From assembly GCF_000238095.2 (NCBI RefSeq), contig NZ_JH815225.1:1307863-1371862 (forward strand): 64,000 nt of DNA, in the 5' to 3' direction. Positions 32,326 through 48,025 of this stretch are shown here, piece after piece. Numbering within the stretch: position 1 is the first letter of the stretch; every line of letters starts with the position of its first letter. A program made the translations under genes and the position numbers. The notes beneath the pieces were generated by a model that did no database searches, was not told the origin of the DNA, and saw nothing but the letters and a program-made list of their open reading frames with translations. Origin of the DNA: Peptoanaerobacter stomatis. GTDB taxonomy: Bacteria > Bacillota > Clostridia > Peptostreptococcales > Filifactoraceae.

Positions 32326-33141
32326 ATGTTATCAGCAAAAGAAGTAGCAGAGCAGTACATAGAATTGGGAGAAAAAAAATCCGGCTATCCCTTATATAAG
32401 ATGATAGGTCTTGCTATACTTGCCGGAATATTTATAGCACTTGCATCAGTTGCATCAAATACCGTATCGGCTACTGTAGAAAGCGGCTCTATAGCAAAAT
32501 TGCTTGCAGGTCTTGTTTTCCCCGGTGGGCTCATTATGGTGCTTTGCTGTGGAACTGAACTTTTTACAGGAGATTGTCTTTTAGTAATATCTCTACTTAA
32601 GAAAAAAATTAGTTTATTTAGAATGTTAAGATGCTGGTTTTTTGTATATATAGGCAATTTAATAGGCTCAGTTATTATTGCAGGACTTATCAATATGTCC
32701 GGACAACTTTCATTTTTTAATAATGAATTGGCACTTACAACTATAAAAGTAGCCGTAAAAAAAGTATCTTATACATTTTCTCAAGGCTTGGCTATGGGTA
32801 TACTATGTAATATCCTCGTTTGCACAGCTGTAATAATGGCATTTTCAGGTAAAACTTTAAGCGATAAGGTGTTGGGTACATTTTTCCCTATACTGTTATT
32901 CATATTATCAGGATTTGAACACTGTGTAGCAAATATGTATTATATTCCGTCAGGAATGATGGCACTTTCTAACAGTGAATATGTAAAAATGGCTGTTGAG
33001 CACAATATACACATAGAAAAATTAAATATAGGCTCATTTTTTATAAACAATTTACTTCCTGTTACAATAGGCAATATAATAGGCGGAAGTATATTTATAG
33101 GTGCATTTTACTGGTTTTTATATTTGAGAGAAAAACATTAA
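32326..33141 (+). CDS. Formate/nitrite transporter family channel
   Basis: 271 aa with six hydrophobic segments. GGLIMVLCCGTELFTGD is the signature of the FocA/NirC pore family, and SGFEHCVANMYYIPSGM carries the conserved pore His. These pentameric channels move formate, nitrite or hydrosulfide. The place downstream of hutI suggests formate handling, since histidine degradation in anaerobes yields formiminoglutamate and then formate. GGAG precedes the ATG and a 15-bp hairpin follows. Confidence 0.88.
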   Translation: MLSAKEVAEQYIELGEKKSGYPLYKMIGLAILAGIFIALASVASNTVSATVESGSIAKLLAGLVFPGGLIMVLCCGTELFTGDCLLVISLLKKKISLFRMLRCWFFVYIGNLIGSVIIAGLINMSGQLSFFNNELALTTIKVAVKKVSYTFSQGLAMGILCNILVCTAVIMAFSGKTLSDKVLGTFFPILLFILSGFEHCVANMYYIPSGMMALSNSEYVKMAVEHNIHIEKLNIGSFFINNLLPVTIGNIIGGSIFIGAFYWFLYLREKH

Positions 33142-34766: not shown

Positions 34767-35738
34767 TTAATCAACCAACTCTTTTACACCGAATGCCTCC
34801 GCCATAAGCATTATTTTTTCAGCCCATATGTGATGAGTGTTGTACTCGTTCATTCTTTCGCTTTTTGTACTGCCTGATACCAGCAATTTGGAGTTTTCAT
34901 TCCAATTCAATATGGCTTTTGCGTCTTCAAAATCTTTTTTATGTACCTTAAACCCTTCATTTATAACTTCAATTTGTTTTGGATGTATGACAGTTTTTCC
35001 TACAAAGCCACACAATATATCTCCTTTAATTTCATCAAGCAATCCCTTTTCCCAATTACTGCTGTCATAATATTCCCATACAGGTGCGGATATTACATAA
35101 TCTGTTCCATATACCGTAACAATATCTGAAAATATAGATGATATAGGCTTTATGTCGTGTATGGATTCATCATCATGCCTTCTAAAACCGAATATATGGC
35201 ATAAGTCATTACCGCCCACACGAATATTTAGGACAAGTTCTTCTATTCTATCAAGTTTATATTTCAATTCATATAAAATATCATAACGCATCTGTAAATT
35301 TACTATTGCTACACTTTCATAAATAGGCATCATATATATTTTTTTATTACTTTTTTGATTTACATTAAATATCGCCTCTATATACCTGTCTGCATTTTCA
35401 AGCGAAAATTTAGGTATTATAAATCCTGTTACAATATCCATACAATCTTTTAAACTCTCGCATAATTCATAGATTTGAGCATAATTTCTTACTCTTATAA
35501 AAATCTTAGGAATATGTATACCATCTGATGTATATTTCTCATAAATATTACTTATTGACTGTATAAGTTTTTGCTCTGCCTCCAATACACAATTATCCGG
35601 TATTGTGTCTTCAAGGCATAATGCAAGAGAAAAATTTGACGAAAATTTTCCATTTATTATGGAATCGGCAATGCTGTCGCTATTTGCAGGACAATACAAT
35701 AAAGCCCCTACACTATAATATATTAAATTATCTTTCAT
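34767..35738 (-). CDS. CitE/HpcH-like C-C bond lyase, TIM barrel, Ter-module type
   Basis: 323 aa. ALCLEDTIPD, the NIRVGGNDLCHIF strand and GKTVIHPKQIE match the HpcH/HpaI-CitE fold, in which a metal and CoA-type or oxo-acid substrate bind at the barrel mouth. Proteins of this size beside PRTase-TRSP and StiP genes form the C-C bond lyase family of the biosynthetic modules linked to tellurium-resistance loci; their substrate is unknown. It is transcribed divergently from the protease-fusion gene, with a 118-base shared promoter region. GGAG lies before the ATG. Confidence 0.82.
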   Translation of the reverse strand: MKDNLIYYSVGALLYCPANSDSIADSIINGKFSSNFSLALCLEDTIPDNCVLEAEQKLIQSISNIYEKYTSDGIHIPKIFIRVRNYAQIYELCESLKDCMDIVTGFIIPKFSLENADRYIEAIFNVNQKSNKKIYMMPIYESVAIVNLQMRYDILYELKYKLDRIEELVLNIRVGGNDLCHIFGFRRHDDESIHDIKPISSIFSDIVTVYGTDYVISAPVWEYYDSSNWEKGLLDEIKGDILCGFVGKTVIHPKQIEVINEGFKVHKKDFEDAKAILNWNENSKLLVSGSTKSERMNEYNTHHIWAEKIMLMAEAFGVKELVD

Positions 35739-35856
35739 ACAAACTCCGTTAAATTAAATTTTATTTATCATTGTAGCATAATTTTGAACAAAAAGATAGA
35801 AAAAATGTAATATATATGATAATATTTATAAAAACAAGTAAAGTGAGAAAAGTGCT

Positions 35857-37221
35857 ATGTGTGAGAATATAAAATACCGTCACAATATTATAAATATAAA
35901 CTCCATAAATGCGTTTGTAAACATACATGGAGGAGTAGGTAAAAATTGCAGAGATGTATACTTTATAAGGACATTAGGCATAGATGAAAATTTAATCTTA
36001 GATTTGGAAAAAGCGGAAAAAACTCTATATGAAAATATGAGCAAAAATATACTTGTATATAAAAGGATAGAAGCCTTACCAAACAATATACAAGAAATTG
36101 ATTACTATGAGTTATGCTATCAGAGATTTCTGAAAGATGAAAATATATCTACTAAAGTATCCGGCATAACCCCTGCGTTAGACAAGACTTTTAGCGATGC
36201 TTGCAAAGAAGTACTTAAATTATATAAACTTTCAAATAAAAATATTTCTTTGTCAATGGAAAAAAACTATTGTATAAAACTATTTTATAGATTTGACACA
36301 ATATTTTCCGATTGCTTGAAAACTTGGAGCGAAAAAATAAATATAAAAGTAATAACTGACAATATTGTCAAATTACAGGACTATCTGTTTTTTTATATGC
36401 TTACCTTGATAGGTGCAGATGTATTAATGCTTCAAAGCAAAAATGACATAGAAATAGAAGAATGCTTTTTAAATCTTTCAAAAAAACTATATATCGGTAG
36501 TTACAGTGATATTTCATTACCTATTTACAAACAAAAAGCTGATTTTATACAAAATAATGCAAATATTAAAATTGATAACACCGGCTCTCAAACAGAAAAG
36601 AATGTAAGCATAAAACCTCAATACATATCTTCCGACGATTATAAAAAACAGGAAAAAACTTTTGAACAGTTGGCAGGTATGGCATCTTCTATTGTTATGA
36701 TTACTATAAAAAATGATTACAATGAAATAATAGGCACAGGCTCCGGTATTATGATAGGACAAGACGGATACATACTTACAAATAATCATGTAACCGGAGG
36801 AGGCAGAGAATTTGTAATAAGAATAGAAAATGATGAAACCTTATACTCTACAACTCAAATAATAAAATACAACCAGTTGTTAGACTTGGCAATAATAAGA
36901 ATCGAAAAAAAACTCCATCCCCTTAAAATATATGACGGAAAAGATGATTTGGTAAGAGGGCAAAAAGTTGTTGCCATAGGAAGTCCATACGGATTTTTCA
37001 ACTCTGTATCTGACGGTATAATATCAGGCTTTCGAATAATAGATGATGTGGATATGATTCAATTCACAGCACCTATATCGGCAGGTAGCTCCGGAGGTGC
37101 AGTGCTTAATATGTACGGAGAAGTAATAGGCATAAGTACGGCAGGCATACGAAATGCTCAAAATATAAATTTGGCAGTATCTTACGAATCAATAAATACC
37201 TTTGTAAAAGGTTTCATATAA
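35857..37221 (+). CDS. YceG-like N-terminal region fused to a trypsin-like serine protease
   Basis: 454 aa. Residues 275-454 are a trypsin/HtrA-like domain: H311 (TNNHV), D343 (LLDLAI) and S412 in GSSGG form the catalytic triad. No PDZ domain, signal peptide or membrane segment is seen, so the protease should be cytoplasmic. Residues 1-230 resemble the YceG-type protein of Ter-linked biosynthetic modules: DVYFIRTLGID near 33 and ADVLMLQSKNDIEIEE near 187. That match is from memory of the family and only moderate. It is first in an operon with a HAD gene 15 bases downstream. The ribosome site is weak. Confidence 0.78.
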   Translation: MCENIKYRHNIININSINAFVNIHGGVGKNCRDVYFIRTLGIDENLILDLEKAEKTLYENMSKNILVYKRIEALPNNIQEIDYYELCYQRFLKDENISTKVSGITPALDKTFSDACKEVLKLYKLSNKNISLSMEKNYCIKLFYRFDTIFSDCLKTWSEKINIKVITDNIVKLQDYLFFYMLTLIGADVLMLQSKNDIEIEECFLNLSKKLYIGSYSDISLPIYKQKADFIQNNANIKIDNTGSQTEKNVSIKPQYISSDDYKKQEKTFEQLAGMASSIVMITIKNDYNEIIGTGSGIMIGQDGYILTNNHVTGGGREFVIRIENDETLYSTTQIIKYNQLLDLAIIRIEKKLHPLKIYDGKDDLVRGQKVVAIGSPYGFFNSVSDGIISGFRIIDDVDMIQFTAPISAGSSGGAVLNMYGEVIGISTAGIRNAQNINLAVSYESINTFVKGFI

Positions 37222-37236
37222 AATAAAGGCGATAAA

Positions 37237-38028
37237 ATGAACATATTTAACACAGATTTAGACAACACACTCATATACTCATACAAAAAAGATATAGGAA
37301 AAAACAAAAAAAATGTAGAAATATATAACGGCAGACAGATTTCATTCATAACTGATAAAACATACCATCTTTTGAAAAAACTGAGTAAAAAACTGTTAAT
37401 CGTCCCTACTACAACTCGCACCAAGGAGCAGTACAAAAGAATAGATTTGGATATAGGACAGCTAAAATATGCACTTGTATGCAACGGAGGCATATTGCTT
37501 ATAGACGGGAAGGAAGATGAAATGTGGTATAACACCTCACTTTCTCTCATAGAAAACAGTAAAAATGAGCTTGAAAAATCACTCACATATCTACAAAACG
37601 ACAACAGAAGAAATTTTGAACTCCGATTTATTAAAAATCTATTCGTATTTACAAAATGCGAAAATTCTCAAAATGTAGTCAATGATTTAAAAAATATCTT
37701 AGATACAAGCAAAGTTGATGTATTTAACAACAAAGAAAAATTATATGTAATTCCAAAAAATCTCAGTAAAGGAAATGCTTTGCTTAGATTTAAGCGATAT
37801 TTAGACAGTATTTCAGACAATAAAAAAATTTTTATATCAGCAGGCGACAGCGAATTTGACATATCTATGTTTGATAAAACAGACATTTCCATAGCGCCTC
37901 AAGAATTGTCAAAAATACACAAACTACCGAAAAATACAATATTAATAGACAATTTTTCATTATTTTCTGAAACCATGCTCGAAAAAATCGAAAGTATGCT
38001 TGACAATCAGTTTCATACTATTACCTAA
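37237..38028 (+). CDS. HAD-superfamily phosphatase of the Ter-like module
   Basis: 263 aa. The HAD motif I is NTDLDNTL with nucleophile D7 and acid D9, followed later by the Lys and the GDSEFDISMF motif IV region. The cap and length are those of Cof-type sugar-phosphate phosphatases. A HAD phosphatase of this kind is a standing member of the Ter-linked PRTase/StiP modules, where it is thought to remove a phosphate from a nucleoside-like product. Only 15 bases separate it from the protease fusion, and a stem-loop follows. Confidence 0.85.
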   Translation: MNIFNTDLDNTLIYSYKKDIGKNKKNVEIYNGRQISFITDKTYHLLKKLSKKLLIVPTTTRTKEQYKRIDLDIGQLKYALVCNGGILLIDGKEDEMWYNTSLSLIENSKNELEKSLTYLQNDNRRNFELRFIKNLFVFTKCENSQNVVNDLKNILDTSKVDVFNNKEKLYVIPKNLSKGNALLRFKRYLDSISDNKKIFISAGDSEFDISMFDKTDISIAPQELSKIHKLPKNTILIDNFSLFSETMLEKIESMLDNQFHTIT

Positions 38029-38039
38029 TTAAACAAGCT

Positions 38040-38074
38040 TATAATAAAAATACTAAATTAAATATATTTTTATT
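38040..38074 (+). terminator. AT-rich stem-loop after the HAD gene
   Basis: A stem of about 12 bp (ATAATAAAAATA with its complement about 12 bases on) lies 11 bases after the HAD stop. It is all A/T, so it is a weak terminator or attenuator between the two halves of the module. Confidence 0.5.
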
Positions 38075-38196
38075 ATAATGTTACTTGATTGTTTGAATAT
38101 ATTTTAAACACCGGCATTTAATAAACATAGATATTTTTTTTAATATAATTTAATACACAAATAAAATCACTTTTCCACAATAAAACAGGAGAACCT

Positions 38197-39309
38197 ATGT
38201 ATACAGAACAAGATTTAATAAAAATTGCAAAAAGGCAAAACAACAAAAAAAGAAACTATCTAATAGTAAATAAACTTCAAGGTAAGCATATACCTGTAAT
38301 ACCGAGCAAAGCTCTCAAAATGTTTGACGATTTGGCAAACCTGCTTGCACATAAATATATAGACGAGAAAATATTGGTGATAGGATTTGCAGAAACCGCA
38401 ACAGCTATCGGAGCATCGGTTGCACTCAAAATAAATGCCCCATATATTCACACGACAAGAGAAAATATACAAGGAGAAGAATATATACACTTCACAGAAG
38501 ACCACAGCCATGCCACAGAGCAAAAATTGGTAAAATCAGACGTTGACAGTATAATTGATAAAACAGACAGAATTATCTTCGTAGAAGACGAGATAACAAC
38601 AGGCAAAACTATACTCAATATCATAAATAAATTAAGCAACCTCTATAAAAAAGATATAAAATATACTGCAATTTCAGTTCTCAATTCAATGGATGAACAA
38701 TCCGAAGAAATTTATAAAAACAAAAACATAGACATATATTATCTTGTAAAGATAAACTCACAAAATTATCCAAAAATAGCAGATACTTATAAAGACGACG
38801 GACAATATTTTACTAAAACCGAACTAAAAAATTTCAGTGATAATTCAAAAAAAATAAAAATAACGGATATACATTCATATGTGAATTCAAGAAAACTCAT
38901 AAACCCTATGTCTTATAAAAAATTATGCTATGAATTATCTAATCAAATATTGCAAAATATCAAACTACAAAATGTAAAAGACATACTCGTATTAGGTACG
39001 GAAGAATTTATGTATCCCGCCCTTTTTACAGCTAATGAAATCGAAAAAAATGATAAGAATGTCAAATTTCATGCAACTACAAGAAGTCCTATACAAGTCA
39101 GCAACACATCCGATTATCCTCTTCACACAAGATACGAAATATCAAGCCTTTATGATGAAAATAGGACTACATACATATATGACCTGAAAAAATACGATAT
39201 GGTCATAATAATTACAGATTCTAAAAATCAAAAAAACTCATATACAGAACTTGTAAATGCACTTGTATCATGCAAAAATGATAATATTATAATATTTAGG
39301 TGGTGTTAA
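38197..39309 (+). CDS. Phosphoribosyltransferase-TRSP domain protein
   Basis: 370 aa. Residues 1-210 form a PRTase fold with the PRPP-binding loop VEDEITTGKT at 129-138 and GFAETATAIG near 63-72. The C-terminal part contains TTRSPIQ, giving the TRSP signature at 295-298, and matches the TRSP domain found only with this PRTase family. The enzymes are expected to join a base to phosphoribose as a step in an unknown nucleoside-like metabolite. AGGAG lies before the ATG. The StiP gene follows at once. Confidence 0.92.
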   Translation: MYTEQDLIKIAKRQNNKKRNYLIVNKLQGKHIPVIPSKALKMFDDLANLLAHKYIDEKILVIGFAETATAIGASVALKINAPYIHTTRENIQGEEYIHFTEDHSHATEQKLVKSDVDSIIDKTDRIIFVEDEITTGKTILNIINKLSNLYKKDIKYTAISVLNSMDEQSEEIYKNKNIDIYYLVKINSQNYPKIADTYKDDGQYFTKTELKNFSDNSKKIKITDIHSYVNSRKLINPMSYKKLCYELSNQILQNIKLQNVKDILVLGTEEFMYPALFTANEIEKNDKNVKFHATTRSPIQVSNTSDYPLHTRYEISSLYDENRTTYIYDLKKYDMVIIITDSKNQKNSYTELVNALVSCKNDNIIIFRWC

Positions 39310-39310
39310 T

Positions 39311-40360
39311 ATCAAAACTTCATACGATAAAAACGACGTAATTTTACTATTAAAAGACATAACAGGTTTAATCAAGCCTATGTCCACACAAGAAAGAGAA
39401 AAACTTATCCAAATCGGCAGGCATTACAGCGAGATGCTACCGATAGAATATACACCGAGTAGTCAATATATGACAGTTTACAATCAAGTGCTCGAATTAT
39501 ATTCAGATGAAGTTGCAAACGCAATAGGCAATTTATCAGATGAAATAATCACACAAAAAGGCAAAAATATAGTATTGGTATCACTTGCAAGAGCAGGCAC
39601 ACCAATTGGAATACTCATAAAAAGATATATAAAATTCAAATATAATATAGATACCCCTCACTTTTCTATATCTATAATAAGAGGAAAAGGCATAGATGAT
39701 AATGCTATGAAATATCTCTTGTCAAAATATTCAGCAGAAAAATTACTTTTTGTTGACGGTTGGATTGGAAAAGGAGCAATACTTAATGAATTGAAAAAAG
39801 CTGTATCCTTATATAAAAATGTATCATCTGATATAGCAGTTGTAGCAGACCCCGCAAATGTAACCGAGTTATGCGGAACACATCAAGACATACTTATCCC
39901 AAGTTCATGCCTCAATTCCACAGTCAGCGGTCTTATAAGCAGAACCTTTTTAAGAGAAGACATAATCGGAAAAAATGATTTTCATGGAGCATTATATTAC
40001 GAAGAATTAAAACCCTATGACTTATCATACGAATTTATAAGCGAAGTTGAAAGACATTTTAAAATTAATAACGTCAAAGATACAGCCATAATAGACGGAT
40101 ACGGAATAGATGAAGTAAAAAAAATAGCCGAAGAATTCTACATAAAAGACATCAATTTTATAAAACCGGGTATAGGCGAAACTACCAGAGTTCTGTTAAG
40201 ACGAGTGCCTCATCTGATATTGATAGATGAAAAATATAAAAACTCAGTACAATTACAACACATAGTCAAATTATCCGAAGAAAAAAATGTGCCTATACAA
40301 TATTACAATTTGAATCATTACAAATGTTGCGGAATAATTAAAAACTTATCAGATATATAA
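39311..40360 (+). CDS. StiP-family protein with C-terminal PELOTA RNA-binding domain
   Basis: About 349 aa if started at 39311. HYSEMLP, VLVSLARAGTPIGIL, FVDGWIGKGAI, CLNSTVSGLISRTF and DFHGALYY match the StiP family (PRTase-like, once proposed as cysteine protease). KPGIGETTRVLLRRVPH near the C-terminus is the PELOTA-type domain. Homology (SYDKNDVILLLKDITG) extends upstream of the first ATG (39380), back to an in-frame stop at 39290, with no ATG, GTG or TTG between. AGGTGGT at 39298-39304 favours the ATC at 39311 as a noncanonical start, 1 base after the PRTase stop. Start at 39380 is the conservative choice. Confidence 0.9.
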   Translation: MKTSYDKNDVILLLKDITGLIKPMSTQEREKLIQIGRHYSEMLPIEYTPSSQYMTVYNQVLELYSDEVANAIGNLSDEIITQKGKNIVLVSLARAGTPIGILIKRYIKFKYNIDTPHFSISIIRGKGIDDNAMKYLLSKYSAEKLLFVDGWIGKGAILNELKKAVSLYKNVSSDIAVVADPANVTELCGTHQDILIPSSCLNSTVSGLISRTFLREDIIGKNDFHGALYYEELKPYDLSYEFISEVERHFKINNVKDTAIIDGYGIDEVKKIAEEFYIKDINFIKPGIGETTRVLLRRVPHLILIDEKYKNSVQLQHIVKLSEEKNVPIQYYNLNHYKCCGIIKNLSDI

Positions 40361-40391: not shown

Positions 40392-40641
40392 AAAAGCAAT
40401 GAAGATAACTTATAATAGTATCTAATCAAATAGACATATAATACTAAATTTAATGTATTTTATTATAAAATGCTCGTATTTTTTGCTTCAATATGTTTCT
40501 TAAATATGCCTTATACTAAAAATATATTGAACAGTAATATAAGTAAGTTAAAACAAAATTATTTATAATCTACAAAATATATAATTTCATCAAATATAAA
40601 ACAATGGATATTATAAATTCTTATTAATATTGGAGGCCATT

Positions 40642-42429
40642 ATGTCATTTTCTGAAAAATTAAATAAACTCATGCTGCAATACAATATTAAAAACATTGA
40701 TTTGGCGAAAGAAATGAATATTTCTCCTTCTTTTGTAAGTAAAATAAGAAGAGGAATTGCCACACTCCCGCCTTACAGTGATATCTATGACAAATTATAC
40801 TACGCTTTTGATCATCTTCTATCTGATGAACAGATTATGGATTTGAAAAAACAATACAATCTTTCATGGGATAAAAAAAGTTTTTCTACATGGATATGTG
40901 AAGATTGCATAAAATCATTACCGAAATTTTCTATCTGTCTTTATAAGCTTATGGACTTTTTTGATATTTCCAACAAAACTTTAGCAAAGGAGCTGAATTT
41001 TGACCCATCACTAATCAGCAGATATAAGACAGGAGACAGAATTCCGTCAACAGATAATAAAATAATAAACCAAATTGTAGATTACTTTGCTAACCTGACA
41101 CTTGAGAGAAAATGCGAAGAAGAACTATTGCAATATATAGGTGTAAAATCTGTAAATGCTTGTAAAAAGGAAGATTTTGTCTCCATAATATTTTCTTGGT
41201 TTATGAACGAAGATCTCGACACAAAACTTATGGACAAAATATTTCATATGATGGAAGAATATCACTCATTTGTTCCGGATTTCAAAAAAGTTTCCAATCT
41301 TCTCAAAGACACTTACATTCCTCCATATCATATAATAAAAAAACAAGGAAATGAAGGTTTGAGACAGCTTGTACTTTTATTTTTATCTCTATGTTGCAAA
41401 TCCGAAAAGAAGTTGGAATTAAAGTTGTTTTCCAACCAAAATATGTCATGGATGATAGAAGACCCCGAATTTTTCCAAACATGGCGTGCATTGATGCTTA
41501 CAATATTGGAATGCGGACATAAAATTTTTATTATTCACAACATTGAACGGAAAGATAAAGAAATGTTTTCAGCAATAGAAGGCTGGCTGCCTTTACATCT
41601 GTCAGGAAATATTGAAAGTTATTATTATACCGCATCTTTTTCCAATCCGTTCTCCAATACCATATTCAGCTCCGGTAGTTTTGCTGTATACGGAAATTTT
41701 ATAGACAGTTTAGAAAACGAAACTGATTTCTATTTCACTCAAGAACAAAACACTATACAAAAATTGGAAGAAGCATTTGAAGATTTAACTAAACATTCGC
41801 AAAAACTTTTAAAAACTCTAAATATCAAGTCAATAAAAGACATTGATTTCTTTATTCCTACAGAGAAAAAAATAAATCATTCCGTACATTTAATGCAGCA
41901 AAATCTTCCCATATGGCATATTGACGAAGACCTTCTCGCAGAAATTTTGTCGGAAAATAATGTTTCTAAAAAAGAACATGAATATATATGTGAATATATT
42001 AAAAAACTTCGTTCTTTTTACAAAAAAGTTTTAAAAAATAACTCTTTTTTTGAATACTTTTATATTCCCAAACAACGTATCTATGAAAAAAAGCCTTTCG
42101 ACTTTTTAAATATACTTGGACAAGATAGGATTTACTATACTGAAACTCAATATAAAAAACAACTCATAAATATTGCAAAAACATTAGAAACATATAAAAA
42201 TTATCATATAGTTTTGTTGGATAAACCAATATACGACAGCATAAAACTGTTTCAATTTGAAAGTAACAGTATTTTTGCAATCAAAAACAAATTCCCTGTA
42301 TCCGCTATTCAATATGAAAGCGATATACTGCTTGCAAAATTTCAGACTTATATTCTATCAAAGCAGGAAAAATCCATTAACAGCTTAAATGATTATGAAG
42401 AAGTTTGCAATCAACTTCTTACAAAATAA
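40642..42429 (+). CDS. Large regulator-like protein with two N-terminal HTH domains
   Basis: 595 aa. Two XRE-type helix-turn-helix domains are in tandem: residues about 5-58 (IDLAKEMNISPSFVSKIRRG) and 98-150 (KTLAKELNFDPSLISRYKTG). The remaining 440 residues, with no signal peptide or membrane segment, are not recognised; they include several Trp/Phe-rich helical stretches and a cluster of charged residues. The ATG at 42 bases into the reading frame's first start is preferred because GGAGG lies 5 bases upstream; a TTG at 40630 overlaps it. It directly follows the StiP-type module, so it may regulate that module. It ends convergent to the lectin-domain gene. Confidence 0.75.
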   Translation: MSFSEKLNKLMLQYNIKNIDLAKEMNISPSFVSKIRRGIATLPPYSDIYDKLYYAFDHLLSDEQIMDLKKQYNLSWDKKSFSTWICEDCIKSLPKFSICLYKLMDFFDISNKTLAKELNFDPSLISRYKTGDRIPSTDNKIINQIVDYFANLTLERKCEEELLQYIGVKSVNACKKEDFVSIIFSWFMNEDLDTKLMDKIFHMMEEYHSFVPDFKKVSNLLKDTYIPPYHIIKKQGNEGLRQLVLLFLSLCCKSEKKLELKLFSNQNMSWMIEDPEFFQTWRALMLTILECGHKIFIIHNIERKDKEMFSAIEGWLPLHLSGNIESYYYTASFSNPFSNTIFSSGSFAVYGNFIDSLENETDFYFTQEQNTIQKLEEAFEDLTKHSQKLLKTLNIKSIKDIDFFIPTEKKINHSVHLMQQNLPIWHIDEDLLAEILSENNVSKKEHEYICEYIKKLRSFYKKVLKNNSFFEYFYIPKQRIYEKKPFDFLNILGQDRIYYTETQYKKQLINIAKTLETYKNYHIVLLDKPIYDSIKLFQFESNSIFAIKNKFPVSAIQYESDILLAKFQTYILSKQEKSINSLNDYEEVCNQLLTK

Positions 42430-42681: not shown

Positions 42682-44982
42682 TTACTCACTCCAAACAATA
42701 ATGATAGAATTCGTAGAATTAATCCAGTCCACTTGGCAGTTGAGATTTTCAGCTCCAAAACGTAGTGGTACAAAAGTACGTGCATTAATAACTTTCGGCT
42801 CTATATCCATTTTTTCGTTTTTTCCGTTCTTAACAAGTTTCTTTTTATTAATCCACATCTTAACTGAATTTCCACTTGCTTTCAGAGAAACTTCCTGCGT
42901 TGAGTATTCCCAACCTACAGTACCGTCCATAGCCTCAACAATCGCACGAATCGGAACAACAGTACGTCCTCTTAATACAATCGGTGCTGTTCCTTTGCCA
43001 GGATCAACTTCCTGAATAATACCGTCTACACTCATCTTAGGATCATCAATCTTAAGCATAATGAAATGACGTGTAGCTGATTTATTTTTAAATCCCTGTC
43101 CTATAAATTCTGATGTTGTTGTTTTCCATCTTGCAAGAGTATCGCCTATTTCTTCTCTCTTTCCGTTCAAAGGATCGGCTTCAGCAAGAATTTCCTTTAA
43201 AGTGTAATAATAAGTGGTATTAGGCTCAGCATTTACATCTGTAAAGTTTGTAGAAGTTATATAAAAATCTGTTACAGAAATTCCAAGACTGTCTTCACTT
43301 TCAGAGCGATATAGACGATATCCTATTGCTCCAGTTCTCTTAAAATCAACAGTTACCCCTGTAACTCCGTTAAATGCGGATGTAGTTGATTTTGCAGTAC
43401 CGTCTGTTATTTCTATTGGAACCGCTTTATTTTCAGCCGGTTTACCTGTATTTGCAGGTTTTTTAGTTTCAGTAGGTGTAGGTTTATTTACAGGCTCGTT
43501 TATCTGAGAAGCAGGTTTAGCATTTCCTCCTACCGTCAATGAAACATCGTCAAAATATGCGTCTGTCTCACCATTTTTACGTATTCCCCAAAGTTCTACA
43601 CGAGCTTTTACAGCTCCTACAGGCATTCTCTCAGAAATATTTAATCTGTACCAGCTACTTTTTGAACCTTGTGCTTTTGATTGTTTTATTACATTGTCTG
43701 AATTATCAAGAAATTTCAATACTATTTGGCTCTCATCCGGCGGATTCTGGTCCCAATTACAACTTTGTGTACTTAATTCAACAGTTTGACCTGCATTATA
43801 TCCGCTTAAAGAAACATCTTGATATATACATGGATTATTTTGAGGAGACCATACCAAATATTTACCGTGAACAGCTTTATATCTCTCATTCTCTACCATC
43901 TCTTGGGAATTCCAAGTTCCTTCAGCCTCTACCCAATATGACAGTCCCTCTTCGAAACTTGGATTTTTAAGAAGATTTTCTCCAACTGTACCGCTTTGAT
44001 TTTCGCTGACTTTCTTAGCTGAAGGTAACTCGCTGCTCCATTCACATACAAATGGGAATGTTGTAGAATAATTATCATAACCTCCGAAAAAGTCTACCCA
44101 TTTCCAACTTTCAGCTCTGGCAGCAATAAGATAATTTTCTCCTCTTCCAAGACCGTTATTAGGTTCTATCGGAGAATTCCAATACGTAAAACTCCAAGCT
44201 TCACCGTTCATCCATTTCCATTCACCTTCCTGCTCTCTGTCAGTTCCGCCTATTATATAGGCTATTGCATTTTGTTCTGAAAAAAGAGTTTTAAGGAAGT
44301 CATTTTCGCTTTCACTTGTTATAGTTGCCAAATATCCTCCCATTTCCTTACAACGCTTTTCTGCAACTTCAGGAGTTACAGATTCTGAAACTATCAGATA
44401 TGTGTGCCCGTTAAAAGTCCTTAAATCTGCATTTTTAGGAATATTTTCAGTGCTTCCACTTAAATACTCATCATTCGTTTCTTTAGGAGTGATCTGAGAA
44501 GAAGAACTGTTGTCTTGAACTCCTTTTAATTCAACAAACGGAATAAAGTTTGATGCAACGCTTGAACTCCATGTTTCAGGAGAAGAGTCATATATATAAT
44601 ATTGTCCGGGTTCTATTATTATATCCGGAAATACATCCCAGTTTACCTTTTGTGCGCCTGAACTGCCACGAGCCTCAGCATTCCACGAACCTATGCTGTT
44701 TCCTTTATCATCATAAAGTGATATCGTTCCGGGATCCATACCTCTACCGTTGTTCCAGTGATAAGTGGTAATTGACTTCAAACTGTACCTTTTTGTAATT
44801 TCAAACATAAAACTGGTGTATCCTTTAGGATTGTTTTGTGTAGCATCAGTTTTAAAGCTTGACAAAAAAACATCATAATCGTCTATTCCGTAAGCAAATG
44901 AAATATGTACCATCATTCCTGCGCACAGTACAAATGCCGTAAGTATAGAACACAATTTCTTAAAATAATTTACTTTAAACAT
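42682..44982 (-). CDS. Secreted C-type-lectin, CBM and copper-amine-oxidase-N domain protein
   Basis: 766 aa. A signal peptide (about 1-30) precedes an unassigned beta domain (35-155). A C-type lectin-like domain lies at about 188-315 (TYLIVSESVTPEVAEKRC, ending FPFVCEWSS). A CBM4/9-like carbohydrate-binding domain follows from about 335 (NLLKNPSFEEGLSYW). After a Pro/Lys/Thr linker and fibronectin-like segment, two copper-amine-oxidase-N-like repeats end the protein (GRTVVPIRAIVEAMDGTVGW). The protein probably binds surface glycans or wall material. AAGGGGG precedes the ATG. It is monocistronic and divergent to the BTAD-type regulator. Confidence 0.8.
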   Translation of the reverse strand: MFKVNYFKKLCSILTAFVLCAGMMVHISFAYGIDDYDVFLSSFKTDATQNNPKGYTSFMFEITKRYSLKSITTYHWNNGRGMDPGTISLYDDKGNSIGSWNAEARGSSGAQKVNWDVFPDIIIEPGQYYIYDSSPETWSSSVASNFIPFVELKGVQDNSSSSQITPKETNDEYLSGSTENIPKNADLRTFNGHTYLIVSESVTPEVAEKRCKEMGGYLATITSESENDFLKTLFSEQNAIAYIIGGTDREQEGEWKWMNGEAWSFTYWNSPIEPNNGLGRGENYLIAARAESWKWVDFFGGYDNYSTTFPFVCEWSSELPSAKKVSENQSGTVGENLLKNPSFEEGLSYWVEAEGTWNSQEMVENERYKAVHGKYLVWSPQNNPCIYQDVSLSGYNAGQTVELSTQSCNWDQNPPDESQIVLKFLDNSDNVIKQSKAQGSKSSWYRLNISERMPVGAVKARVELWGIRKNGETDAYFDDVSLTVGGNAKPASQINEPVNKPTPTETKKPANTGKPAENKAVPIEITDGTAKSTTSAFNGVTGVTVDFKRTGAIGYRLYRSESEDSLGISVTDFYITSTNFTDVNAEPNTTYYYTLKEILAEADPLNGKREEIGDTLARWKTTTSEFIGQGFKNKSATRHFIMLKIDDPKMSVDGIIQEVDPGKGTAPIVLRGRTVVPIRAIVEAMDGTVGWEYSTQEVSLKASGNSVKMWINKKKLVKNGKNEKMDIEPKVINARTFVPLRFGAENLNCQVDWINSTNSIIIVWSE

Positions 44983-45460
44983 AATTTTTACCCCCTTATT
45001 TTTTATTATTTATGTTTAAAAAACGCTTTTTAAATAAACTATAAAAAGTGTTTTCCTACTTTTAATTATAGAAATACAGACGTTTTTAGTCAATTAAGTT
45101 TCCTTATTTGTCACTTGACAATATCAGAAATTTTTACCTGTTTATAACTTAATTGAAAACAGAAATTATATTTGCCAAAAATATTTAGTAATAAAGAAAT
45201 CTAATTCAACATTGGCATTATTTTTGCAAAATTAGATATAATTATCAAATAAATATAAAATTTATGTTATAATATATCATAATTTTTTACCTACATTTTA
45301 TATTTGTCAACAAATAAAAATTTATGACAAGTCTATAAAATTGGAAATTATTTTTAAGACTTTCATAGCGAAATGAGTGATAAGCTATGAACTTAACGTC
45401 TTTTAAAATAAATATATTACAATATTATACCTTGTGAGAATAAATATGGGAGAAAGAACT
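44983..45460. other. Divergent intergenic region
   Basis: About 480 AT-rich bases between the secreted lectin-domain gene and a plus-strand regulator gene; it must hold both promoters. TTGACA at 45116-45121 and TGTTATAAT at 45265-45273 are promoter-like but not well spaced together. No RNA gene or repeat was recognised. Confidence 0.4.
45265..45273 (+). promoter_or_regulatory. Candidate extended -10 for the BTAD-type regulator
   Basis: TGTTATAAT fits an extended -10 (TGn plus TATAAT), about 190 bases before the gene. No -35 is apparent; low confidence in such AT-rich DNA. Confidence 0.3.
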
Positions 45461-48025
45461 ATGAAAACTTTAGAAGTACGGCTATATGGTGGAACACGCA
45501 TATTGGCTGATGGAAAGGAAATAGAGTTTCCTTTTATGAAGTCTGCTTTGCTGCTCATAATTTTATCTGATAAGAAATCATACAGCAGAAAAAAACTTCA
45601 ACTTATGCTATGGCATGATAAAAACGAGCAAAAAGCTGACAGAAATTTGAGAAATACAATATACGTAATAAAACAAAAATTGGGAGGAGATGTTATTTTA
45701 ACGGAGAAAAATTCCAAAATAAGACTCAATGAAAACATATCCGTTTTAAATGACTTGGACATTATAAACTCTTTGGAATATAAAGATATGTGCAAAGATG
45801 ATTTGCAGAATATATACTCGTATTTTTCTGATGAAATTTTTGAAGATTTGAATTTTGAATACGGTATATCCCTTGATGATTACATAAGAAATTTCAAAAA
45901 TATATATAACGAAAATATATACAGAAAATTAATCGAAATATCTCAACATTTTATGCATGTAATGAATTATGAAAATGTAATTATAACTTGCGAATTTATG
46001 ATTAAGCTCAATGAATATGACGAAACACCTTATAAAAATCTTATAACCGCCTATAATTCACTTGGCATATTCTCAAAAATAGCTGAAATAGACAAGAAAA
46101 TGTCAGATATTTTCGGATATGACGCAAACGCTGATAAAATCGCCAATATAGGTAACGAATATTATAGAGATGATCAAATATTTTATACACTTTCAGAGAT
46201 AACAAAATTTAATCAAGGTGAAAAATACAGGCATATAGGAATAAAAGGAGCAAGCGGCAGCGGTAAAACCGAAATATTAAACAGTATCAAGCTACAACAA
46301 AACAATGACACAAAGATAATTGATTATAGTATTTCCAATGGATATACACCTTGTAAATACGAAGTTTTCAACTATATAATAAATAAAATAAGAAACAATT
46401 TATTGCTTGATTCTTCATCTTTATATGATATAGTGGCAAACGGACAAAAAGTTATACTCATAATAGATAATTTAGATTTGTCGGATGTCGAATCGATAGA
46501 AGAACTGTTCAACTTCATAATACGCTCTGAAAATAAAATACTTCTTATAGCTACTTATAGTATGGACTTAGATAACAAACTCACATATTTTTTAAACTCA
46601 CTTTCTACAGAAGACCTTTTTACAGAAATAAAACTCGGAAATCTCAACTTTAACGATTTAAAAAAAGCATATTCAAATTTAAGTGATGAGCAAATAAACA
46701 ATCTCATTGTTCAAAGCGGAGGAAATCCGTTTTTAATAAATTATTTGATGAATAACGGAGTTACAAAAGAGATGTATAACGCTTTTATGAGCGTAAATCT
46801 TTCCTGTAAAACACAGACATCTCTTAGAATACTCAATTTATTATCTATAATGAAAAACCGAGTTGATATAAATACACTATCAGACATCTTGAATATTGAT
46901 GTCGATAAAGTTGTACAAGAAGTATCACAGCTTATAAACAGAGGAATACTCATAGAAAATACAGAGCAGGATTATGTCGAAATTGAATTTTGCAACAATC
47001 TACAAAAAGAGTACATCTGTTCGTCTATCAAAAATATAGAAAAACAATATATTCACAAAAAGATTGCTGATTATTATGAAAGCATACTATGTGATAATTA
47101 TAGCATAGACAACAAATACTACACCATAATAATATATCATCTTACCATGGCAAAATATATGGATAAAGCATTCATATATAAATGTAAACAATTTAACAAA
47201 ATATATAATATTTCGCACGAATTTTTCCCTATTGCGCTTGATGAAGAATACAGCTATTCCGTAAATTTCAATATAGATGAAAATATGTTTAAAAACAAAT
47301 ATGAAGAGCTTATGGAAGAAATGGATAATCTTAAAAACAAATATAGTGAAACCATACTGAAAGTCAAAATAAATATGCTCTTTTGCTATGCAAGATTTTA
47401 TAAGAGTATAGGCAAGTTTGACGAAGCTCAGGAAAAATTAAATGAGATACTCAGACTATCAGAATCATTGGATTATTTTATAGGAATCTTCCAGGCACAT
47501 CTTCAATTCATTCAATATTCCATAAATATAAATGATTTGAAAATGATGAAATCACATTTAAAAACCCTCCACAACGATTACAAAGATATGATGAGCGAAG
47601 TACAATATGCTATTTACCTAAGATTTAAAGGATATTATGACGTTCTTGAACATAATTTTAAAAGCGGTATACAAAAAGTAGAAGAAGCGCAAGAAATATT
47701 CAAAAAACAACATAAACTTTATAAGATGAAATTCAATATAGCCGCTTGTAGCTTTGTAAAAGGAGAAGCAAAGTTTTTACAAAATGAATTTGATGACGCT
47801 TTTGAATACTATATGGACGCAATCTCCATTTGCCATGACAAAGAAATACATCCATCTCTTGCCCTGTTATTTTCAAGATTAGGTCTTGTACGATTAAAGC
47901 AACAATCATTTGACGAAGCTAAATATTACTTCGAAAAATCGCTAAAACAGTATAACACAGTAGGATTTTCTTGGGGAAAAGAACAACTGTATTCTCATAT
48001 TGATAAAATATATAAGTCAAAATGA
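45461..48025 (+). CDS. BTAD/SARP-type transcriptional regulator with AAA ATPase and TPR-like repeats
   Basis: 854 aa. Residues about 1-95 form an OmpR-like winged helix (KTLEVRLYGGTRILADG and the RRKKLQLMLW stretch), then a BTAD-type helical domain to about 215. A NTPase module follows with P-loop GASGSGKT at 263-270 and a Walker B VILIIDNLD. The C-terminal third shows degenerate TPR-like helical repeats. The architecture is that of SARP/MalT-type regulators that switch on nearby operons. It starts at the ATG 45461 with GGGAG upstream. It precedes the molybdenum hydroxylase operon, which may be its target. Confidence 0.8.
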   Translation: MKTLEVRLYGGTRILADGKEIEFPFMKSALLLIILSDKKSYSRKKLQLMLWHDKNEQKADRNLRNTIYVIKQKLGGDVILTEKNSKIRLNENISVLNDLDIINSLEYKDMCKDDLQNIYSYFSDEIFEDLNFEYGISLDDYIRNFKNIYNENIYRKLIEISQHFMHVMNYENVIITCEFMIKLNEYDETPYKNLITAYNSLGIFSKIAEIDKKMSDIFGYDANADKIANIGNEYYRDDQIFYTLSEITKFNQGEKYRHIGIKGASGSGKTEILNSIKLQQNNDTKIIDYSISNGYTPCKYEVFNYIINKIRNNLLLDSSSLYDIVANGQKVILIIDNLDLSDVESIEELFNFIIRSENKILLIATYSMDLDNKLTYFLNSLSTEDLFTEIKLGNLNFNDLKKAYSNLSDEQINNLIVQSGGNPFLINYLMNNGVTKEMYNAFMSVNLSCKTQTSLRILNLLSIMKNRVDINTLSDILNIDVDKVVQEVSQLINRGILIENTEQDYVEIEFCNNLQKEYICSSIKNIEKQYIHKKIADYYESILCDNYSIDNKYYTIIIYHLTMAKYMDKAFIYKCKQFNKIYNISHEFFPIALDEEYSYSVNFNIDENMFKNKYEELMEEMDNLKNKYSETILKVKINMLFCYARFYKSIGKFDEAQEKLNEILRLSESLDYFIGIFQAHLQFIQYSININDLKMMKSHLKTLHNDYKDMMSEVQYAIYLRFKGYYDVLEHNFKSGIQKVEEAQEIFKKQHKLYKMKFNIAACSFVKGEAKFLQNEFDDAFEYYMDAISICHDKEIHPSLALLFSRLGLVRLKQQSFDEAKYYFEKSLKQYNTVGFSWGKEQLYSHIDKIYKSK

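Follow-up and report, generated by a model that had tools for sequence, protein, structure and literature searches.

The 64 kb stretch of DNA analyzed here (the window; C1:1307863-1371862 of a 2.33 Mb genome that is 97% complete) carries a group of genes that represents a known system in rearranged form and not an independent new one: the genes, predicted to produce a nucleotide-like stress signal, lie apart from the tellurium-resistance (ter) genes that usually accompany them and that are found at other sites of this chromosome. The group is probably a copy of the Ter-associated biosynthetic module that has been relocated and compacted, originating from the clostridial ter clade that possesses a YceG-HtrA protease, and the metabolite predicted for its enzymes would be bound by TerD and YceG domains. 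In common with the Ter-associated biosynthetic module, the window has clustered genes for a lyase, a PRTase-TRSP protein, a StiP-PELOTA protein, and a HAD protein, and its genome also encodes TerD, YceG, TelA, and a P-ATPase. The window differs from this module in four features: (i) the set stands apart from the ter genes, (ii) the gene order is altered, (iii) a lone lyase gene lies on the opposite strand, and (iv) the ATP-grasp gene is absent. The Ter pathway is widespread, and a locus reduced to four enzymes plus a single sensor-like protease provides a small test bed for it.

Genes of the module

The module occupies about C1:1342629-1348222 on the chromosome and includes the following genes and adjacent features, given in positions of the window with Pfam scores in brackets:

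34767..35738, minus strand: CitE-like C-C bond lyase of family PF15617, assigned by Pfam (C-C_Bond_Lyase, 313 bits) and by the tree; divergent from the other module genes
35739..35856, no strand: intergenic region of 118 bp between the divergent lyase and YceG-protease genes, with the same divergence in the rumen loci L042-L044
35857..37221, plus strand: fusion of a YceG-like domain (about aa 34-204) with an HtrA/Deg-type serine protease that lacks PDZ (aa 295-426; Trypsin_2, 89 bits)
37237..38028, plus strand: HAD-IIB phosphatase (Hydrolase_3, 37 bits)
38197..39309, plus strand: PRTase_2 phosphoribosyltransferase with a C-terminal TRSP domain (PRTase_2, 168 bits; TRSP, 84 bits); the PRPP motif VEDEITTGKT is present
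39311..40360, plus strand: StiP-PELOTA protein (StiP, 317 bits; PELOTA_1, 102 bits), first annotated from the ATG at 39380, with a conserved N-terminus from the ATC at 39311
40630..42429, plus strand: protein of 599 aa carrying two HTH domains of the XRE type and an unassigned C-terminus, encoded 269 bp after the StiP-PELOTA gene

All five module ORFs are intact and lie where the preliminary description had placed them, and the catalytic motifs of the protease, the PRTase, and the HAD protein are preserved. The five families named in that description (lyase, YceG-like/trypsin, HAD, PRTase_2-TRSP, and StiP-PELOTA) were upheld by Pfam scores of 37-317 bits, with the YceG part below the cut-off, and their association had been correctly recognized there as a known one. 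That unrelated enzymes merely lie side by side by chance or were misannotated, for which the weak YceG score and nothing else can be cited, is highly improbable and is refuted by the strong family scores and by the recurrent clustering of the same genes in Clostridia, Lactococcus, and Mycobacteroides.

The 599-aa protein with two HTH domains is a possible regulator of the module; no homologues were found in 13 related genomes, and thus its membership in the module is only putative. Searching the window with Rfam and for tRNAs gave no matches, the promoter and terminator scans stayed near the shuffled background, and the base composition gave no sharp island signal.

Ter genes in the rest of the genome

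The statement that the module occurs without ter genes is correct for the window, where no TerD, TerC, TelA, or ATPgrasp_Ter is encoded within 64 kb, but it is not correct for the genome. The host does have ter genes, split into two main pieces. One is a TerD-AIM24-TerD-P-ATPase cluster with a Ter-type P-ATPase at C1:1437281-1442258, its edge ~89 kb and its nearest TerD gene ~92 kb from the module; the other is a full YceG gene adjoining TelA at C1:404546-407554, ~935 kb from the module. The family search for TerD gave three matches in the genome, two of them in this cluster and one an orphan on C2. A complete ter locus elsewhere in the genome had been considered in the preliminary description as evidence against its own reading; the ter genes are indeed located elsewhere, but they do not constitute a complete locus, since they lie in two pieces. 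These remaining pieces resemble the other ter clade, and they may not be the matched partners of the module.

The absence of ATP-grasp, noted previously for the window, is real and extends to the whole genome, where ATPgrasp_Ter was found neither by the family search nor by a protein query; the same query did recover the genes of G391 and G398. By the protein query, ATP-grasp is also missing from G399, G211, G301, G372, G421, and G405, and it is present in the loci L042-L045 and L047. Absence of ATP-grasp is common among the clostridial modules and is unusual only inside the clade of the window module. TerC is absent from the window's genome; since the ten other genomes examined also lack it, this absence is uninformative.

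Co-occurrence of StiP and TerD

Among 391 genomes sampled evenly from the class, 11 had StiP above the cut-off, and 11 further StiP genomes were found among relatives. All 22 StiP-positive genomes encode TerD, compared with 3 of the 25 StiP-negative relatives tested (Fisher p 1.9e-10, a rough guide, as the sampled genomes are related). The two genes are near each other in 18 of the 22 genomes and clearly apart in the window's genome (G000) and in G428, a relative with the same kind of split locus; in the other two genomes, G021 and G372, contig ends intervene and leave the distance undecided. The usual gene order is lyase-PRTase-StiP-HAD beside a varying choice of TerD, TelA, YceG, and P-ATPase. 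The same order was found on Alkaliphilus and Lactococcus plasmids, and on a Mycobacteroides plasmid the module lies beside TerD with DUF475. Over 2,500 plasmids with known sequence encode StiP.

Because StiP never occurred without TerD in the 22 sampled genomes, the Ter-independent version of the pathway proposed in the preliminary description is not supported. In such a version, the locus would be a self-contained conflict or stress unit in which the enzymes make a ligand, the YceG-protease protein serves as the effector, and TerD is not needed. A sensor-like domain is indeed joined to an intact protease in one protein adjoining the enzymes, the nearest ter gene is about 90 kb away, and trypsin-like domains serve as effectors in other predicted conflict systems (PMC7159879). 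We nevertheless regard such a unit as unlikely, given that TerD, YceG, TelA, and P-ATPase are all encoded in the genome, that relatives of the protease sit in ter operons, and that PADLOC yields only weak generic protease and PRTase matches.

Relatives of the module and probable rearrangement of the locus

In a tree based on the concatenated sequences of the lyase, the PRTase, and StiP, the window joins three rumen loci, L042 (CACWKD010000003.1), L043 (ONAH01000019.1), and L044 (OMYH01000048.1), with 100% support and 61-63% identity; these are the module sequences closest to the window among those in the tree. The next ones are G391 from the same genus and G398 from the same family. With the nearest loci in the tree coming from outside the genus of the window, both transfer and differential loss are possible.

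The rumen loci share with the window the divergent arrangement of the lyase and YceG-HtrA genes. In L042 and L043, lyase, PRTase, StiP, and ATP-grasp genes are read one way, and genes for the YceG-protease, a rhomboid protein, YceG, TelA, and three TerD proteins the other way, whereas L044 ends after the protease gene. All three loci retain the ATP-grasp gene that is absent from the window, and two of them retain the downstream rhomboid and ter genes. Unlike the window, the fetched stretch of these loci contains no HAD gene, and their protease has a longer proline-rich linker. The rhomboid-family gene between the YceG-protease and YceG genes (L042:11943-12788) encodes a second protease in the system.

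Other relatives show further variants of the locus. In G395, a member of the same family, genes for a YceG-protease, a rhomboid-like protein, YceG, TelA, three TerD proteins, P-ATPase, and HAD follow in this order, and the HAD protein of this ter locus is the closest one found for the HAD of the window (53% identity). The ter locus of G301, from the same order, encodes a YceG-trypsin protein, shared with the window, divergently from three TerD genes; unlike the window, it is a full contiguous ter locus with the ordinary lyase-PRTase-StiP-HAD order. In the gut contig L077 (MT836648.1), StiP is 70% and the lyase 60% identical to the window proteins, and the lyase gene is inverted relative to PRTase-StiP, as in the window; YceG-TelA and three TerD genes are adjacent and a YceG-protease gene is missing, the window being the opposite on both points. 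The L077 record is labelled Bacteriophage sp., and no obvious phage genes were seen among the ORFs read; L077 may be a piece of a bacterial chromosome.

In relatives from the YceG-protease clade, the lyase operon is divergent from a second operon, in which the YceG-protease gene comes first and the rhomboid, YceG, TelA, and three TerD genes come after it. In the window, the genes in between are missing, so that the YceG-protease gene is immediately followed by the HAD gene, and the PRTase and StiP genes come behind the HAD gene. The simplest account would be that the genes separating YceG-protease from HAD were lost and that PRTase-StiP was relocated, with this direction of change presumed.

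StiP as a candidate second phosphoribosyltransferase

The residues invariant among 26 StiP sequences include those of RAGxPxG and FxDGWxGKG-type motifs. No cysteine is invariant across these 26 sequences, the best column, C177, being occupied by Ile in two of them. The structure of StiP predicted from six sequences (pLDDT 74, core 80-94) gave its best matches to PyrR and hypoxanthine-guanine PRTases (E 3e-4, probability 1.00), which are partial matches (TM 0.57 by target), and its PELOTA part matched L7Ae. Profile comparison of StiP with the PRTase of the module revealed no sequence similarity. Judging from the predicted structure and the motifs, the "cysteine protease" domain of StiP looks like a second phosphoribosyltransferase; the StiP family of Pfam was, we presume, formerly named PRTase_1. 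If StiP is such an enzyme and not a protease of the cysteine type, the chemistry proposed for the pathway will be different.

Conservation of the StiP N-terminus reaches beyond the ATG at 39380, as far upstream as the ATC at 39311. In L042-L044, an ATG stands after a conserved GGTGGTG, and in the window the same GGTGGTG is followed by the ATC. Either this ATC is used as a start, or a shortened StiP is made, or the assembly contains an error.

YceG-HtrA protease and proposed function

The N-terminus of the protease protein matches YceG_bac (PF14266) with 21 bits against a Pfam cut-off of 25, whereas its G301 homologue (L074:6901-8337) scores 71 bits. Alignment of the N-terminus to YceG proteins by hhalign gave P 2.8e-5 and a probability of 74%, and both the homologue score and this profile-profile match support its assignment as YceG-like. 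In the structure prediction for the whole protein, the N-terminal half was poor (pLDDT about 30), and therefore the prediction does not bear on the YceG fold. The C-terminal half has Foldseek matches to DegS and HtrA1 and lacks the PDZ domain; its catalytic triad H311, D343, and S412 is conserved in the window and in L042-L044. No signal peptide was evident by eye.

The protease had been regarded as an addition to the module, and this view was not confirmed, as YceG-trypsin homologues recur within the ter loci of rumen clostridia, of a member of the family, and of G301. The fusion is rare: in the class sample, the N-terminus in such a fusion was clearly matched only in the window and, more distantly, in G301. 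A distant ter locus, which also encodes ATP-grasp, PRTase, HAD, StiP, lyase, and a probable TerC, contains a TerD-trypsin fusion (L078:2808-3947) that is apparently independent of the YceG-trypsin fusion, so that a ter-type domain and a trypsin-like protease have apparently been coupled at least twice. There is no sign of carriage by mobile elements, because searches gave no relative of the YceG-protease in IMG/VR and none of full length among plasmids.

The nucleoside-like metabolite of the module is a published prediction (Anantharaman, Iyer, Aravind 2012, as cited in PMC7824862 and PMC8115787). In the mechanism that we favor, the PRTase and StiP, as a second enzyme of the PRTase fold, would act with the lyase and the HAD phosphatase under stress to yield a phosphoribosylated and then dephosphorylated nucleoside-like small molecule. 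This molecule would be bound by TerD and YceG-type domains encoded elsewhere, and in the window protein the YceG domain would be a receptor that turns the cytosolic HtrA protease fused to it on or off. The domain architecture of the fusion makes it tentatively conceivable that YceG-HtrA is a cytosolic ligand-gated protease, in which binding of the module product to the YceG domain sets off proteolysis, this being the output of the Ter response. If so, the Ter system would gain a defined effector, and the retention of the protease with the enzymes after the ter genes had moved would be explained.

Under the same mechanism, the module and the distant ter genes would function together in trans. 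The terZ-F operon of a Klebsiella plasmid alone, without the biosynthetic cluster, gave tellurite resistance to E. coli MG1655 (PMC8115787). A split locus is thus plausible, since terZ-F acts apart from the biosynthetic cluster.

Genomic surroundings of the module

In G392, a congener without StiP, an FNT gene is followed directly by a gene for a SARP-like regulator. In the window, the FNT gene (32326-33141) and the SARP-like gene (45434-48025) are separated by ~12 kb that include the module. The junction in G392 is a possible empty site, a reading that is tentative because the SARP proteins of the window and G392 are just 23% identical.

The absence of the module from a congener would also fit a decaying remnant that is disappearing after the loss of ATP-grasp and of the ter core, as would the ATC at the StiP start position, which is ATG in relatives, and the genome-wide lack of the ATP-grasp gene that is present in L042-L045 and L047. 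However, every ORF is open, the active-site motifs are conserved, several clostridial modules lack ATP-grasp, and StiP retains 70% identity to its nearest homologue; we therefore consider decay quite unlikely and favor a relocated module.

The stretch missing from G392 also contains a gene (42682-44982) for a C-type lectin protein with a Cu-amine-oxidase N-terminal domain, which is probably secreted or surface-located. In the region 28469-53644, the module is surrounded by a molybdenum hydroxylase gene and by genes resembling those for histidine degradation (hutU, hutI, and an aromatic amino acid lyase).
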